Below, piece by piece: positions 13,110 to 41,908 of a DNA stretch of 41,908 nt. The position numbers and the translations under genes are program-made. The DNA comes from a virus: the IMG/VR virus record IMGVR_UViG_3300044625_002264, positions 1 to 41,908 of that record; one strand, written 5' to 3'. Below the pieces are notes generated by a model that searched no databases, was not told the origin of the DNA, and worked only from the letters and a program-made list of their open reading frames with translations. Position 1 is the stretch's first letter. Each line of letters begins with the position of its first letter.

Positions 13110-13121
13110 TTTCAATTCTTT
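13088..13121. terminator. Weak bidirectional terminator candidate between convergent genes
   Basis: AAAGAATT (13088-13095) pairs perfectly with AATTCTTT (13114-13121) around an 18-base loop holding both stop codons. Each strand has a T-rich run beyond the stem in its own direction (TTCTTTGATTTTTT on plus, ATTTTTT on minus). The stem has only one G-C pair, so it would be weak. Confidence 0.3.
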
Positions 13122-13528
13122 TTCTTTGATTTTTTCTTAGAAAAACCAAGAGTTGTTTCTGCAACTGAAGATACTTCAACTACAGTTTCTTCAGTTGAAA
13201 CTGTTTCAGAAGCTAATACTTCTTCAACTTTCAACTCTTCTGCAACTTCATTTATTACTTCTTGTACCAATGGTTCTTCCATCACGGGTTGTTCAACCTT
13301 AGATTCTTGAACAGGTTCAACGTGTTCAACATGTTGTTTGACTTGCTCCTGTCTAATCTCTGATACAACCTTTTGTTTGCTGGCGAATACTATCTTCGGT
13401 AGTTCGTGTTCAACAACTTCTTTTGAAGAAACCAACTTTCCTGTTTTATCAAGTTGTGTGTGAGAAGTTGTTGGGTCTAGTTTACGTTCGTGAATATTTG
13501 CTAAAATTGCTCTTCTTGGTGCGGGCAT
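13112..13528 (-). CDS. Acidic low-complexity protein (138 aa), unknown
   Basis: After a short basic N-terminus (MPAPRRAILANIHERK), residues 40-125 are dominated by Glu, Val, Gln and Ser (for example VEHVEPVQESKVEQPVMEE), and the C-terminus is a basic KKKSKKKN tail. It looks intrinsically disordered, with an acidic centre between two basic ends. The start is supported by GAGG five bases upstream. It lies just downstream of the histone H1-like gene, with a hairpin between them. A role with DNA or with the histone-like protein is possible, but this is inference from charge and position only; no family is recognised. Confidence 0.6.
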   Translation of the reverse strand: MPAPRRAILANIHERKLDPTTSHTQLDKTGKLVSSKEVVEHELPKIVFASKQKVVSEIRQEQVKQHVEHVEPVQESKVEQPVMEEPLVQEVINEVAEELKVEEVLASETVSTEETVVEVSSVAETTLGFSKKKSKKKN

Positions 13529-13545
13529 TGTTACCTCATATGAAA

Positions 13546-13572
13546 ATGGGATACATGATATATGTATCCCAT
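13546..13572 (-). terminator. 11-bp perfect hairpin between histone-like and acidic-protein genes
   Basis: ATGGGATACAT (13546-13556) and ATGTATCCCAT (13562-13572) form a perfect stem with a five-base loop. In the direction of transcription (minus) it lies 28 bases past the histone-like stop and is followed by TTT then CATATGAGG, so it resembles a terminator or attenuator with a short T run. It ends 17 bases before the next start codon, so it could instead be a leader hairpin or a repressor operator. Confidence 0.45.
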
Positions 13573-13600
13573 CGTAAAAAAACGACCAATTTTAAGGATT

Positions 13601-24532: not shown

Positions 24533-25435
24533 ATGAATAAAGTTTACGTTCTTCCGCCTTCAGAAGATTGGATCGTCGACCGATTTGTTAATGAATGGAA
24601 TCAAGACAATTCTGATATTAGCGTCATGCATCCAAAAGATGCTGATGTTGTATGGTTACTTGCTGATTGGGCATGGGATCAACTTGCAAGAACTGGGTGG
24701 TTAACTAATAAAAAAGTATTAACTTCTGTTCATCACATTGTTCCTGAAAAATTTAAAGATCAAGACATCAAAAATTTTTTACTGCGAGATAAATTCACAA
24801 CTGCGTATCATGTCTATAATCAACAAACTGCAGAGTTCATAAAGAACTTTACTGAAAAGCCGATTCATTTAGTAAAGTACTGGGCAAATCAAAAAATCTG
24901 GCATCAAACTGCAGATAAGTTAGATTTAAGAAAAAAATATAATCTTCCAGAATCTTCTTTCTTAATAGGTTCTTTCCAAAGGGACACTGAAGGAAGTGAT
25001 CTGATTTCTCCAAAACTTGAAAAAGGACCAGATCTTCTAGCTGACGCTATAGAAAAGTGGTGGTCTACAAATAAAAAAATTCATGTAGTTTTAGCTGGGT
25101 GGAGAAGACAATACATCATCAATCGACTCAATTTAGCTAAAATTCCTTATAGCTACTTTGAAAGACCAGCACGTGAAATAATAAATGATCTTTACCAAAC
25201 TCTAGACTTGTATCCAGTTACTGCAAGATGTGAAGGCGGTCCGCAGTCGTTAATTGAATGTGGGTTAATAAACGTACCAGTTGTTTCAAGAAACGTTGGA
25301 ATTGCTGAACAAGTATTACCACAAGAATCTATAAATGATAACGTCACGTTAGCAATTCCAAATGTTCCAAACGTTGAAGACTGGAAATTACCAAACGGTT
25401 ATCAAAAGTACAGAGAATTGATACTATCATTGTGA
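24533..25435 (+). CDS. GT4-like glycosyltransferase (300 aa)
   Basis: The donor half carries FLIGSFQRDTEG (start of the second Rossmann domain), VVLAGWRRQYIINRL and the donor-site stretch CEGGPQSLIECGLINVPVVS with the expected Glu pair. The N-terminal half is short and lacks the usual GG.e..v..La signature, beginning instead with VYVLPPSEDWIVDRFVNEW. It is thus a compact GT-B enzyme, probably retaining. It begins directly after the upstream stop. It is the last gene before a 50-base gap with an inverted repeat, so it may end a transcriptional sub-unit. The sugar and acceptor are unknown. Confidence 0.8.
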   Translation: MNKVYVLPPSEDWIVDRFVNEWNQDNSDISVMHPKDADVVWLLADWAWDQLARTGWLTNKKVLTSVHHIVPEKFKDQDIKNFLLRDKFTTAYHVYNQQTAEFIKNFTEKPIHLVKYWANQKIWHQTADKLDLRKKYNLPESSFLIGSFQRDTEGSDLISPKLEKGPDLLADAIEKWWSTNKKIHVVLAGWRRQYIINRLNLAKIPYSYFERPAREIINDLYQTLDLYPVTARCEGGPQSLIECGLINVPVVSRNVGIAEQVLPQESINDNVTLAIPNVPNVEDWKLPNGYQKYRELILSL

Positions 25436-25483
25436 ACTAAAATAATAAATGTTGTAATATTAGCATTTAAAGAGGTTAGTTCA
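25433..25483 (+). promoter_or_regulatory. Inverted repeat (possible hairpin) before the first carbamoyltransferase gene
   Basis: TGAACTAA (25433-25440) pairs perfectly with TTAGTTCA (25476-25483); an inner pair AAATG/CATTT (25447-25451, 25464-25468) lies in the 35-base interval. The left arm overlaps the stop of the upstream gene and the right arm ends two bases before the ATG at 25486. The likely ribosome binding site AAAGAGG (25469-25475) falls in the unpaired part. TAATAT at 25455-25460 could be a -10 box of an internal promoter. RNA folding and promoter use are inferred. Confidence 0.45.
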
Positions 25484-25485
25484 TA

Positions 25486-27120
25486 ATGAAGATAGCTGGT
25501 ATTTGGCCTGGGCATGATTGTTCTTTTTGTATTTTAGAAGATGGAAAGCCAACTATTCATGCAGAACTTGAAAGGTACAATAGAGAAAAATCTCCACCAG
25601 GAGATGCTATTAAGTTCATGTTTGATCGTGTAAGATCAGAATCCAAACAAGTATCACATTTTGCTTCAGTTCATCCATTAAAGAAAACGAAGCAATATGA
25701 AGAATCTTTTTCAGCTGCAGAAAAAATTGCTTCTGAAAATGGAGGAAAGTTTCATTTTTTCTCTCATCATAGAGCCCATGCTGCTAACGCTTTCTATTCA
25801 AGCAATTTAAATGAATCTTTAGTTTTGACTATAGATGGTGGTGGCGTAGAAGATGAAAATGGAGGAGAAACAGCATGCACAATCTGGTATGGAAAAGATT
25901 GTTCAATGAAACAATTGAAGTCTTTTAAACCATATGAAGTTAATATTGGAGGAGTTTGGACAAGAATTACTCGATATGTCTTCAAGCTTCAAAATGGATG
26001 GCCACTTGGGGGTGAAGAAGGAACAGTCATGGCTATGGCTGCATTTGGTGATCCTCAAAAGTACTTTAAAGATTTTTTGAAAATGTTAACAACCGATATT
26101 ATTGCTTCTAGCGTAAAGCCCCATAATCAACCTCCTGGTGCAACTTCAGATTCAGATCCAACGCATCCATATCTTGAACCGTGGGCAGCAATTGCAAGAA
26201 AATCAGAACAAGATAAGTTCGATCTTGCAGCTGGATTACAATTAGCTACAGAAGAATTACTAAAACAAATCATTCAATTTGCTTTAGATAAAAGTCCTGT
26301 AAAAACTAAAAATGTTTGCATTTCTGGTGGGGTTTCTTTAAATTCAGTCGCAATGGGCAAAATTAAGTCCTGGTTTCCAGGGGTTATAGAAAACGTTTAT
26401 ATCCCACCAGTTCCATATGACGGTGGTCTTGCTATTGGAGCAGCGCAGATCGTCTGGCATGAAGTTTTGAATAACCCAAGAATTGAATGGAATCATAATT
26501 TCACCCCGTATCTTGGTGAAACATGGAACAAGGATCACTTTGATAAAGTCGTCAAAAGCTATCCAGTCGATATAACCCCTTGTAACGTAGAACAAATAGT
26601 TGATTATTTAAACGATGGTAATATCGTTGCTGTATTTAACGGTAAGAGTGAATCTGGTAGGAGAGCTTTAGGAAATAGAAGCATTCTTGCAGATCCTCGT
26701 AGATCTAATATGAAAGACATAATCAACGAAAAAGTAAAGCATAGAAAATGGTTTAGGCCATTTGCTCCATCTATCCTAGAGCAAGATGCTACGGAGTGGT
26801 TTGACGATTATCAGGAAAGTCCTTACATGCAATTTGTGCTGAAATTCAAGGAAAAAAAGAAACACTTAGTGCCAGCAGTCGTCCATCAAGATGGAACTGC
26901 TCGCTTACAAACAGTTAGAAAAGAAGACAACGAGTGGTATTATGATTTCTTGACAAAATGGAAGCAAAAATCAGGAGTACCAATCATTTTGAATACTAGT
27001 TTTAATGATAGAGAACCAATCTGCGAAGACGCTTCTCATTCTATTAGATGCTTTTTAGGAACTAGAATAGATTATCTTTACTTCCCTGAATATTCGATAG
27101 TTCTTAGTAGAAAATCTTGA
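25486..27120 (+). CDS. NodU/CmcH/TobZ-family O-carbamoyltransferase, copy 1
   Basis: The 544-aa protein is a complete member of the family that moves a carbamoyl group from carbamoyl phosphate, via a carbamoyl-adenylate, to a hydroxyl (on sugars in nodulation factors and aminoglycosides). The N-terminal ASKHA-type domain shows WPGHDCS (7-13), the metal-site HHRAHA (94-99), LTIDGGG (114-120), EEGTVMAMAAFG and SGGVSLNS (280-287). The C-terminal YrdC-like domain shows SESGRRALGNRSILADPR (388-405), KHRKWFRPFAPS and PIILNTSFNDREPI. Active-site motifs look intact. It lies amid glycosyltransferases, so a sugar hydroxyl is the expected acceptor. A paralogue is at 31319-32998. Family certain; target unknown. 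Confidence 0.95.
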   Translation: MKIAGIWPGHDCSFCILEDGKPTIHAELERYNREKSPPGDAIKFMFDRVRSESKQVSHFASVHPLKKTKQYEESFSAAEKIASENGGKFHFFSHHRAHAANAFYSSNLNESLVLTIDGGGVEDENGGETACTIWYGKDCSMKQLKSFKPYEVNIGGVWTRITRYVFKLQNGWPLGGEEGTVMAMAAFGDPQKYFKDFLKMLTTDIIASSVKPHNQPPGATSDSDPTHPYLEPWAAIARKSEQDKFDLAAGLQLATEELLKQIIQFALDKSPVKTKNVCISGGVSLNSVAMGKIKSWFPGVIENVYIPPVPYDGGLAIGAAQIVWHEVLNNPRIEWNHNFTPYLGETWNKDHFDKVVKSYPVDITPCNVEQIVDYLNDGNIVAVFNGKSESGRRALGNRSILADPRRSNMKDIINEKVKHRKWFRPFAPSILEQDATEWFDDYQESPYMQFVLKFKEKKKHLVPAVVHQDGTARLQTVRKEDNEWYYDFLTKWKQKSGVPIILNTSFNDREPICEDASHSIRCFLGTRIDYLYFPEYSIVLSRKS

Positions 27121-38322: not shown

Positions 38323-39257
38323 AAAAAGTAACTTTTGGCATCATAAATTGCAACAGGCTCTTTTATCTCAAGAGTTGTCTAGAATCTTTGATCGACACGA
38401 CTCGCGATTATGACAATAAAGAGTTAATCGTTGTTGATAATGCATCAGTTGAACCAGGTACGTCTGAATACCTTGACGAATTAGAATCTCGTGGTGTAAC
38501 TGTCATAAAGAAATTACAAAGAAATCCGGCCAATGAGTTTGCAATTGGATTAAACACGATTATTTCTAAAGCAACTGGTGATTACGTGTGTATGTTGCAA
38601 GGTGACATGCAGTTTGTTTTAGATGATTGGCTCAACGATGTAGTAGATTTTTATGATAAAAATCTTGATATCGTCGGTAGTATTATGCTAGATGCTCAAC
38701 GTCAAATTACGCATGCTTCTCATAAGATTGTTCAATTTCCCCAAGACCGTCACCCGACATTTTGCAAAAACAATTTCTTTGCAGACCTATCAAGAGATAG
38801 GATCAGCCCTGCTGCTGATGCTATTTTTAGTAGACAAGTAATCGAGCAAATCATGCCATGGCATGAAAAAAACGTTAATCATGAAGGAGGAATGGATTCT
38901 GAAAATGAGATGCGTTACAAGGTCAATAAAATGATCAATGAAGATAAGATTCCAAAATACGTTACTGCTTTATCTGCCATACCTCAAGCAATCGCAATAT
39001 ACACTGACGTAAGAGGAACTCAAGGCAGAGTTAGAGGAAACCGTAGGTACGGATCATACTGGCCGGCAAAAGATTCAACCGGATGGAAGTACTATGAATA
39101 TATTAACGTTTTTGATTATGATTTATCTAAACCGAACTCTATAGAAATTGTTGCAAAACCCATAGGTTTTGAAAAAATGCTAGATTCTAACGGAAATTGG
39201 TTAAAAAACCCGATAAGACCAGAATCTGCGTCTGCTGAAGATTGGGTTGAACTATAA
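38319..39257 (+). CDS. GT2-like glycosyltransferase (312 aa)
   Basis: The ATG at 38319 overlaps the previous stop (ATGA) and gives MKKVTFGIINCNRLFYL, a GT2 start. LIVVDNASVEPGTSEYL (37-53) and DYVCMLQGDMQFVLDDW (88-104, with GDM as the DxD position) follow. The C-terminal third is unrecognised but includes IAIYTDVRGTQGRVRGNRRYGSYW, rich in Arg and Gly. It is the last transferase in the operon. Inverting transfer from an NDP-sugar is expected; the acceptor is unknown. Confidence 0.82.
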   Translation: MKKVTFGIINCNRLFYLKSCLESLIDTTRDYDNKELIVVDNASVEPGTSEYLDELESRGVTVIKKLQRNPANEFAIGLNTIISKATGDYVCMLQGDMQFVLDDWLNDVVDFYDKNLDIVGSIMLDAQRQITHASHKIVQFPQDRHPTFCKNNFFADLSRDRISPAADAIFSRQVIEQIMPWHEKNVNHEGGMDSENEMRYKVNKMINEDKIPKYVTALSAIPQAIAIYTDVRGTQGRVRGNRRYGSYWPAKDSTGWKYYEYINVFDYDLSKPNSIEIVAKPIGFEKMLDSNGNWLKNPIRPESASAEDWVEL

Positions 39258-39294
39258 GCTGAACATATCAAACTTACTCTTTTATTTTAAATCT

Positions 39295-40257
39295 ATGAAA
39301 AAGAATTCGATTGCAGTAATAGGACAAGGTTTCGTCGGGGGTTCACTTACGACTGTCTTCTCAGAACGAGGCCTCGACGTCTACGCTTATGATAAGGCTG
39401 GAAAGTATGCAAAAGGATCTCTACCAAGCCATGGAGACCCAGTTGCAGGTTACCCAGGATCCATTGCAGAATTAATTCATGATAATGAGAATGGTGGAAC
39501 ACCGGGATTTTCTAATGTTTATTTTGTGTGCCTTCCAACGCCCATGTATGATGATGGATCAGCTGACCTCAGCATTGTCGAAGGCGCCTTGAAAGAGTTA
39601 GCTACAGTACCAGGCGAGCGAATTGCGGTTGTTAAGTCTACTGTTCCTCCTGGTTCAACTGAACATTGGAACAAGAAATTTTCAGAAACAGGCCTCCGCG
39701 TCGTCTTTAATCCTGAATTCTTAACCGAAGCTAATGCAGTCGATGATATGCGAAATCAAAACCGCATTATTCTAGGTGGACCTCGTCCGTGGATCAATAA
39801 GGTCAAACAAGTCTTTGAGTCAGCTTTTCCAAGCGTTCCAATCATTAAGACTTCAAGCACGACCGCAGAGATGGTTAAGTATGTCACTAATATTCACCTT
39901 GCAGTTAAGGTCTCTCTCGCAAATGAGTTCTACCAAATCTGTCAGGCTCTAGATAATGCTGGTGCTAACATTGATTATGACAAGGTAATTGAGTATGCTA
40001 CTCTCGATAAGAGATTAGGGAACTCTCACTGGAAGGTTCCCGGCCCAATGCCGGCTGACGACACTGGTGAACCTGCGTTTGGGTTCGGCGGAAGCTGTTT
40101 TTGTAAAGATATTAATGCGCTCATCTCAATCGCAAAGACTTTGGGAATTGATCCGAAGGTGATGAATGGAGCATGGCAAAAGAACATGGAAGTTCGTCCT
40201 CAACGCGATTGGGAAAAGCTGGTAGGCAGAGCAATCTCAAAGAAATCAAAGGGTTGA
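39295..40257 (+). CDS. Short UDP-glucose/GDP-mannose dehydrogenase-like enzyme
   Basis: The ATG at 39295 gives MKKNSIAVIGQGFVGGSL, the expected NAD-binding start; a TTG at 39247 is inside the previous gene and unlikely. The 320-aa product has VVKSTVPPGST, FNPEFLTEANAVDDM (with the family Glu), SSTTAEMVKYVTN, and the catalytic Cys268 in GFGGSCFCKD. The family normally has GGSCFPKD, and continues about 80-100 residues into a UDP-binding domain that is absent here. The reaction in the family is oxidation of UDP-glucose to UDP-glucuronate (or a GDP-mannose equivalent). Without the third domain, substrate affinity or multimer structure would differ. No Shine-Dalgarno sequence is visible at its start. 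Confidence 0.85.
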   Translation: MKKNSIAVIGQGFVGGSLTTVFSERGLDVYAYDKAGKYAKGSLPSHGDPVAGYPGSIAELIHDNENGGTPGFSNVYFVCLPTPMYDDGSADLSIVEGALKELATVPGERIAVVKSTVPPGSTEHWNKKFSETGLRVVFNPEFLTEANAVDDMRNQNRIILGGPRPWINKVKQVFESAFPSVPIIKTSSTTAEMVKYVTNIHLAVKVSLANEFYQICQALDNAGANIDYDKVIEYATLDKRLGNSHWKVPGPMPADDTGEPAFGFGGSCFCKDINALISIAKTLGIDPKVMNGAWQKNMEVRPQRDWEKLVGRAISKKSKG

Positions 40258-40266
40258 ACTAACAAA

Positions 40267-40312
40267 TAAGAGGGTGTTACTATTCCTAAATGCAAGAAGT
40301 AACACCCTCTTA
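40267..40312 (+). promoter_or_regulatory. Perfect 14-bp inverted repeat enclosing the start codon of the nuclease gene
   Basis: TAAGAGGGTGTTAC (40267-40280) is the exact reverse complement of GTAACACCCTCTTA (40299-40312), separated by 18 bases that contain the ATG (40290-40292). The left arm contains the only Shine-Dalgarno-like sequence (AAGAGGG) and the right arm encodes Val-Thr-Pro-Ser. If the mRNA folds, the ribosome site is sequestered. It could also be a dimeric repressor operator. No T run follows, so a terminator is unlikely. Base pairing is seen directly; function is inferred. Confidence 0.65.
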
Positions 40313-41108
40313 CGAGGTACTACCGACCGGTAAACAGCATGTTTCATTTTCAGAAGTAAAGCTCTGGAAAGAATGTTCCTACCGTCACAATCTCATTCAT
40401 ATAAAAAAGATCGATCTTTCTAAACCATCTCCTGTTCTAGACTTTGGTACTGCAGTTCACGCTTCATGTGAGCATTATCTTCTAACGAGAGAGATGAAGC
40501 CCGAGATTGCTTTTGAGCACATGGAAAAAGCCTGGGCTAAACATGAAGGAAATCCAGACTTTAGTCCTGCATCTCTAGAAAAGTCTAAGAAAGAAGTTGA
40601 AGCTATTCTTTCTGAAGTTCCAAAGTTTTTTGATGAAACATTTCCTGAATGGGAAGCCGTTGATGCAGAGCATCAACTATATGAAGCAGTAGAGAATCAC
40701 CCTCATGCTTTTAAGGGTTTTATTGACGCGATTATAAAAACAAAAGGAAAAAGAGGCGAAACTATTTACTGGATACTGGATCACAAAACTACAGCGCGGG
40801 GATGGTTTAGAGAGAAGCGATCAGATGACATGGTGAAAGCCCAGCTTGCACTCTATAAAAACTATTGGTGTCAAAAGAATCCACAGGTAGATATGAAGAA
40901 TGTTCGTTGCGGATTTGTTCTTCTAAAGAAAGCAGCCAAGCCAGGAGATCACTGCGAACTATTCTCCGTCTCTCTTGGTGAAGTTCCAATCAAACGTTCA
41001 TTAAAAGTTGTCAGCAACATGTTGACATCAGTAAAACGAGGTATTTCTTTAAAGAATCGTGATGCATGTACTTGGTGCGAATTTAAAGGCACAAAACACT
41101 GCACTTAA
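40290..41108 (+). CDS. Cas4/AddB-like Fe-S PD-(D/E)XK nuclease
   Basis: The 272-aa protein has the RecB-nuclease-type layout: SFSEVKLWKECSYRH (19-33), GTAVH with His57, FKGFIDAII (Asp146), WILDHKTT with Asp164 and Lys166, and the QLALYKNYW helix with Gln185. Cys29, Cys260, Cys263 and Cys271 (C-x2-C-x7-C at the C-terminus) are placed as in the iron-sulphur staple of Cas4/AddB proteins. Such nucleases degrade single-stranded DNA ends and act in recombination and replication. It could handle phage recombination or host DNA turnover. It is separated from the glycan genes by the inverted repeat. No Cas genes or CRISPR array occur here, so a Cas4 role is not implied. Confidence 0.85.
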   Translation: MQEVTPSYEVLPTGKQHVSFSEVKLWKECSYRHNLIHIKKIDLSKPSPVLDFGTAVHASCEHYLLTREMKPEIAFEHMEKAWAKHEGNPDFSPASLEKSKKEVEAILSEVPKFFDETFPEWEAVDAEHQLYEAVENHPHAFKGFIDAIIKTKGKRGETIYWILDHKTTARGWFREKRSDDMVKAQLALYKNYWCQKNPQVDMKNVRCGFVLLKKAAKPGDHCELFSVSLGEVPIKRSLKVVSNMLTSVKRGISLKNRDACTWCEFKGTKHCT

Positions 41109-41144: not shown

Positions 41145-41908
41145 ATGAAAACAAAATGTTGTATTTTATGTAATCTAGAATTTATTCCAAACGTTAATAA
41201 TCAAAAGTTGTGTTCTGATAAATGTAGGACTAACTTTGGGAATATAAAAGAAAAAAAAAGATATGCTGAAAGTTTAGTATCATCAAGAAAAGAAGCGACA
41301 TGTATTACGTGCTGTAATAAATTTGAATATCATTTTAGAAAAGAAAGAGGAGAAAGAAAGTTTTGTAGTAGATCATGTGCATCAAAATTTTATATTAAAG
41401 AAGGCACTTTTAATGAGTGGCGAACAAGAGTAAATTCTAAGTGTGGCAAAAACGTAAAGTGTCTTAATCTTGTTTGCGAAAATCTTGTTTATGTCCCACC
41501 ACGATTGTTAAAATCTGGTAAAGGGAAATTATGCTCTTTTAAATGTGAAAAAGACTATTTTAGTCAATTATTCAAAGGAAATAAAAATCCTTTTTATGGT
41601 AAGAAATTATCAAATGAAAGTAAGCAAAAACAAAAGGCTACATTACGATCTAATTACCCAAATGTAACAAATGCTTTTAGCTTGGCAAAAAGAAGGACAA
41701 AAACTCGTCCACAAATAGCAATATTTGATTATGTTAATAACAAATATCCATCATTAAATTTTGAAATAGAGAAAAGGCTGAATGAGGGTAATAAAGAATT
41801 TTATGGAGACATTGTTTCATTCTCTAAAAAAATTCTTATTGAATTTAATGGAGATTATTGGCATTGTAATCCTGACAAATATAAATCAGATTTTTTTCAT
41901 CATATTAA
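41145..41908 (+). CDS. NUMOD3 / Vsr-like homing endonuclease with zinc fingers (cut by window edge)
   Basis: The frame starts at an ATG at 41145 and runs open to the last base (254 codons), so the C-terminus is missing. The first 135 residues hold three C-x2/4-C ... C-x3-C fingers (Cys 6/9 with 23/27, 53/56 with 74/78, 106/111 with 130/134). A NUMOD3 DNA-binding repeat follows (GNKNPFYGKKLSNESK, 145-160). The nuclease part has YGDIVSFSKKILIEFNGDYW (220-239; Asp222, Glu233), then His240 and CNPDKYKSDF, the EDxHD/Vsr-like signature of phage homing endonucleases related to I-Bth0305I. Such enzymes cut intronless sites and spread their own gene. The gene is 36 bases after the nuclease stop. Its kinship to the left-edge gene is visible only in the fingers. 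Confidence 0.82.
   Translation, partial: MKTKCCILCNLEFIPNVNNQKLCSDKCRTNFGNIKEKKRYAESLVSSRKEATCITCCNKFEYHFRKERGERKFCSRSCASKFYIKEGTFNEWRTRVNSKCGKNVKCLNLVCENLVYVPPRLLKSGKGKLCSFKCEKDYFSQLFKGNKNPFYGKKLSNESKQKQKATLRSNYPNVTNAFSLAKRRTKTRPQIAIFDYVNNKYPSLNFEIEKRLNEGNKEFYGDIVSFSKKILIEFNGDYWHCNPDKYKSDFFHHI

Follow-up and report, generated by a model that had tools for sequence, protein, structure and literature searches.

In phage T4, the long transcripts of e, soc, 49 and I-TevI fold their start regions shut, while transcripts from a promoter in the 5' arm of the fold are made without that arm and are translated (PMC3014915, PMC2988022). For gene e, the hairpin cuts synthesis about 100-fold (PMC3014915). 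At segB and at mobE of phage Aeh1, too, a promoter is embedded in an inhibitory hairpin of the start region (PMC3014915, PMC2988022). Leaderless mRNA is known from Deinococcus, where it arises from a -10 motif placed 6-7 bp before the open reading frame (PMC12340547).

The locus described here, at the start of a nuclease gene in 41,908 bases of viral DNA (the whole stretch analysed, hereafter the window), resembles the e, soc, 49 and I-TevI cases in several ways. A long transcript is predicted to fold at the start region, and a conserved promoter-like motif overlaps the 5' arm, which its predicted transcript would lack; several of the genes controlled in this way in T4 are nucleases, as here; and similar structures of varied sequence occur in related phages. 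However, the T4 hairpins hide a Shine-Dalgarno (SD) sequence, whereas the element here has none, and the T4 cases mostly use T4 late promoters, whereas this promoter is sigma70-like and its transcript predicted to be leaderless. The T4 late promoter TATAAATA does not occur in the window. The arm sequences are also completely replaced between lineages, and the function here is deduced from sequence. The element would work like the T4 gates but, having neither a T4 late promoter nor an SD, is not a strict member of that group. With the leaderless genes of Deinococcus-Thermus it shares the missing SD and a -10 hexamer that precedes the start codon by 6-7 bp (PMC12340547); it differs in its strictly conserved -35-like TGAACT, in serving one phage gene and in being combined with a hairpin. 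We consider it probable that the element is a translational gate with a promoter inside a hairpin. This reading draws on the dyad, its covariation, the replacement of hairpins across lineages, the promoter geometry and the absence of an SD, all established by sequence comparison, and on a transcription start, read-through, repression and timing that are predicted.

The dyad and its surroundings

The arms of the dyad (Table 1) form a perfect 15-bp inverted repeat, 16 nt apart, with the ATG at 40290 inside the loop. The earlier note had described a perfect 14-bp dyad with an 18-base loop; the place, the perfection and the position of the start codon between the arms all stand, and the arms are slightly longer than described. 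Among the inverted repeats listed for the whole window (arms at most 100 nt apart), this is the longest perfect one, the next-longest being 12 bp. Folding the RNA of 40255-40325 gave -23.0 kcal/mol (z = -5.25), equalled by none of 200 shuffles. The Rfam search of the window returned no riboswitch, thermometer or leader family above the gathering score. On the plus strand the stem is followed by CGAGG rather than a T run, its loop is 16 nt long and no intrinsic terminator was called, so we dropped the terminator reading for want of the T run.

Table 1. Features at the start of the nuclease gene and on either side of it, with positions in the window.
Feature	Position	Strand	Remarks
UDP-glucose/GDP-mannose dehydrogenase-like gene, expected source of read-through	39247..40257	+	PF03721/PF00984; directly upstream of the nuclease gene
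-35-like box TTGAACT	40254..40260	+	TGAACT nearly invariant; overlaps the upstream gene's stop codon
Left arm TAAGAGGGTGTTACT	40267..40281	+	15 bp, perfect; overlaps the promoter spacer and the first part of the -10 box
-10 box TACTAT, with extended -10 TG before it	40278..40283	+	17 nt after TGAACT; spacing fixed in relatives
Loop, 16 nt, holding the start codon	40282..40297	+	From the inverted-repeat listing and the RNA fold
Predicted transcription start, the A of the ATG (leaderless)	40290..40290	+	Predicted from the spacing to the -10 box
Probable Fe-S nuclease gene: PD-(D/E)XK exonuclease-like, four conserved cysteines	40290..41108	+	PF12705, E 9.5e-17; PHROG exonucleases
Right arm AGTAACACCCTCTTA	40298..40312	+	Lies within the nuclease gene, over parts of codons 3-8

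The source of the window is likely a jumbo-type phage, since the IMG/VR contigs that carry its relatives reach about 300 kb and its helicase most resembles the one encoded by the 308-kb Tunturi_5 phage. In an alignment of 25 relatives of the nuclease, Cys29, Cys260 and Cys263 are invariant and Cys271 is nearly so. We take this four-cysteine layout to be the one expected of a RecB/Cas4-type Fe-S nuclease, and, with the PF12705 match, it makes the name Fe-S nuclease used in the earlier note a reasonable one. A search of solved structures with the nuclease profile gave no meaningful match, and the nearest nucleases of cultured phages are just 26-27% identical. In Microcystis phage Mel-JY01 the nuclease gene and the gene before it share 4 nt, so that there is no space between them for an element of this kind.

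An upstream gene on the same strand was found in all main lineages, usually ending about 29-55 nt before the ATG, and read-through into the nuclease gene is therefore expected. What this gene encodes differs by lineage (the dehydrogenase, homing-endonuclease-like genes or other transferases). In five lineages (L011, L019, L031, L047 and L120) it is a Cys-rich gene (CKGC...) that resembles a homing endonuclease of unconfirmed family; the promoter and hairpin survive there despite it. In the window, the nuclease gene is preceded by a run of about 20 genes on the same strand (19792-40257), and those scanned are two carbamoyltransferases, glycosyltransferases, an epimerase and the UDP-glucose-dehydrogenase-like gene, making up a large glycan-modification cluster. 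On the other side, the nuclease gene is adjoined by an open frame (41145-41908) that is truncated, carries a NUMOD3 motif and probably encodes a free-standing homing endonuclease.

The predicted promoter

Relatives were gathered from two IMG/VR scans and are 52-95% identical; clustering at 72% identity gave the 27 lineages used below, with 263 other gene starts as controls. In 49 of 56 relatives with aligned start regions, TTGAACT is followed after 17 nt by TAnnnT and, 6-10 nt later, by the ATG, a promoter arrangement that the earlier note did not mention. Each base of TGAACT is conserved in 37-38 of 38 lineages, and the TA...T of the -10 box in 36 of 38 at fixed spacing, unlike the spacer and surroundings of the promoter, which have diverged among the same lineages. 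TGAACT (40255-40260) is thus nearly invariant at one gene, although the phages differ greatly in G+C.

All 27 lineages have TAnnnT 6-10 nt 5' of the ATG, against 43 of the 263 control starts, and none has an SD core within -17..-5, against 88/263 (Fisher p = 4e-5). When the transcription start is predicted by the usual spacing from -10 to +1, the leader comes to 0-4 nt in every one of the 27 lineages, and in the window the start falls exactly on the ATG. Such -10 geometry together with a missing SD is the sequence signature of a leaderless gene, with a predicted start site.

The dyad overlaps the -10 box TACTAT (40278-40283), and the left arm also covers part of the spacer, so RNA started at this promoter should not include the left arm. 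This makes a switch within that transcript unlikely. Of the functions proposed in the earlier note, a selected regulatory structure acting on translation is still the best reading. The SD-like AAGAGGG pointed out there does lie in the left arm, where it would suit a hairpin that masks an SD within the nuclease mRNA itself until a ligand, temperature or the nuclease opens it. However, about 15 nt separate its end from the ATG, more than is usual for a normal SD, and it is not conserved, reading AAGCGGA in L007 and AAGTGGA in L015. It also lies upstream of the predicted transcription start, and with no SD core in any of the 27 lineages and no Rfam match, an SD-hiding hairpin is very improbable.

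Elsewhere in 18 related records, TGAACT-N17-TAnnnT is about as frequent as its reversed control, with no clear excess, and no convincing second site emerged when the window and two related genomes (G001 and G004) were scanned with a weight matrix. We rejected a regulon on these grounds: the motif is essentially unique to the nuclease gene.

Hairpins in related phages

Within the clade of the window (13 sequences, the window and 12 close relatives) the dyad is largely kept, as in L007 (arms AAGCGGACGTTATT and AATAACGTCCGCTT); in one member, L013, the hairpin is largely lost. Compensatory changes, to which the earlier note had looked, were found: 5/15 pairs in this clade changed on both sides, a number reached by 0/500 shuffles, and the covariation was lost once the partner was slid by 1-3 columns.

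Outside this clade, hairpins of unrelated sequence occupy the same place. Their arms are TCTGACATGTTA and TAACATGTCAGA in L111, TTGCATGTTA and TAACATGCAA in L122, TCTTGCATTAT and ATAATGCAAGA in L020, TGCATTGTATG and CATACAATGCA in L031, and ATAAGGTAAT and ATTACCTTAT in L022. The hairpins differ between lineages in the sequence of their arms, in how long the arms are (7-15), in the loop and in where the centre falls. Keeping the gene while losing the dyad, which would have spoken against a function, is therefore not the rule, as close relatives keep the dyad and, in most of the other lineages, its place is taken by a different hairpin.

The read-through RNA is predicted to be strongly folded in this group as a whole, with a mean z of -2.70 in the 27 lineages vs 0.03 at the 263 control starts (p = 4e-13, a guide only, as the lineages are related). 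A z below -1.64 was reached by 17/27 lineages vs 7.6% of the control starts; the ten that miss it include L017, L028, L030 and L034. Sliding the folded segment along the genes located the signal at the start codon alone. Conversely, RNA beginning at the predicted promoter start has a mean z of +0.33 in the 27 lineages, and in 397 of 421 predicted pairs the 5' base lies upstream of that start. As nearly all 5' partners are upstream, the fold should be kept in read-through mRNA only.

A palindrome without function would have one point in its favour, a second hairpin of similar strength in the window that relatives do not share, which shows that genomes of this kind can produce strong hairpins in isolation. 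This hairpin lies at the start codon of a carbamoyltransferase gene (25427-25489; -23.3 kcal/mol, z -5.06; arms TGAACTAA and TTAGTTCA) and also holds a promoter-like TGAACT...TAATAT and, within the fold, an SD-like AAAGAGG. We rejected it as a second such element: its fold is strong, but the hairpin is missing from relatives of that carbamoyltransferase gene. The earlier note's description of the nuclease-gene dyad as the clearest structure in the window is therefore nearly right, the other folding about as strongly but lacking counterparts in relatives. At the nuclease gene, given the covariation and the repeated presence of hairpins at this site across distinct lineages, a functionless palindrome is barely credible, which agrees with the note's view that a perfect dyad here was unlikely to arise by chance.

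Alternatively, the inverted repeat may matter as DNA, with a dimeric regulator (a phage repressor or the nuclease) binding across the promoter and repressing transcription. The dyad does overlap the spacer and the -10 box, and covariation preserves a DNA palindrome just as it preserves an RNA stem. The distinct pairing exceptions are also about equally G-T (G-U in RNA) and A-C, 5 vs 4, a balance that favours neither RNA nor DNA action and so leaves this reading some room. On the other hand, the total turnover of arm sequence, arm length, loop and centre position is unlike the sites of one conserved protein, and in nearly all cases the 5' arm is found upstream of the predicted start. We therefore regard a DNA operator, although the main rival, as unlikely. 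The turnover of arm sequence and spacing likewise disfavours the autoregulatory site or shared operator suggested earlier, including binding of the nuclease to its own dyad.

How the fold treats the start codon bears on a further alternative, in which the stem of the read-through RNA is cut by an RNase III-like enzyme or separates off the upstream cistron, leaving translation ungated. Four lineages (L019, L022, L026 and L027) have all or most of their main hairpin 5' of the ATG, which it does not pair, so any block of translation there must act by proximity. Three of these hairpins (L019, L022 and L027), just 5' of the ATG, would suit processing or insulation, as would the 15-bp stem of the window. 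However, the stems are often shorter than 12 bp, and in most lineages the AUG is enclosed in the loop or paired. Processing or insulation thus appears distinctly improbable beside a translational gate.

In 13 more distant lineages the promoter is mostly kept, with little hairpin (mean z -0.73). A promoter without a clear hairpin in these lineages suggests that the promoter is probably the older of the two elements.

Candidate mechanism and other observations

The translational gate that we favour would operate as follows. The sigma70-like promoter (TTGAACT, 17 nt, TACTAT) would start an mRNA on the start codon or at most 4 nt from it. RNA reading through from the upstream glycan-gene cluster would carry the left arm as well and fold, the hairpin enclosing or pairing the start region, and with its start folded shut and no SD the nuclease would stay silent in this mRNA. 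Transcripts from the embedded promoter would lack the left arm, remain unfolded and be translated, leaderless initiation taking the place of the SD release in the T4-type scheme. With a fold in the read-through mRNA and none in the promoter mRNA, the nuclease would be made only when its own promoter fires, perhaps as a means of withholding it until then. As a counterpoint, the missing SD might by itself make read-through mRNA a poor template for translation, whether or not the hairpin forms.

More tentatively, the element may represent a gate for leaderless genes, in which a genome-unique promoter with a nearly invariant TGAACT yields the leaderless nuclease mRNA and a repeatedly re-evolved hairpin silences read-through mRNA. 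The single-copy box would then suggest a dedicated factor, possibly the nuclease itself. We put this forward as a possible but rather doubtful extension.

If the translational gate is real, the way in which T4 delays a dangerous product at e and I-TevI also exists in a distant, uncultured group of large phages, and there it can do without an SD. The natural variants would show that the fold, rather than its sequence, is under selection. It also gives a concrete prediction of when these phages make the nuclease, namely when its own promoter is active.

Two minor features were noted along the way. In the 278-kb related genome IMGVR_UViG_3300044641_009805 (G004; L067-L071 region at 50-160 kb), G+C falls from 0.57 at 50-80 kb to 0.32 at 110-140 kb, possibly reflecting a mosaic genome or mis-assembly. 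In the window, a 12-bp hairpin at 13528-13578 (GATGGGATACAT...ATGTATCCCATTTTC), just 5' of the minus-strand gene 13112-13528, looks like an intrinsic terminator for the gene before it, and G001 has a similar stem ahead of one of its genes (53217).
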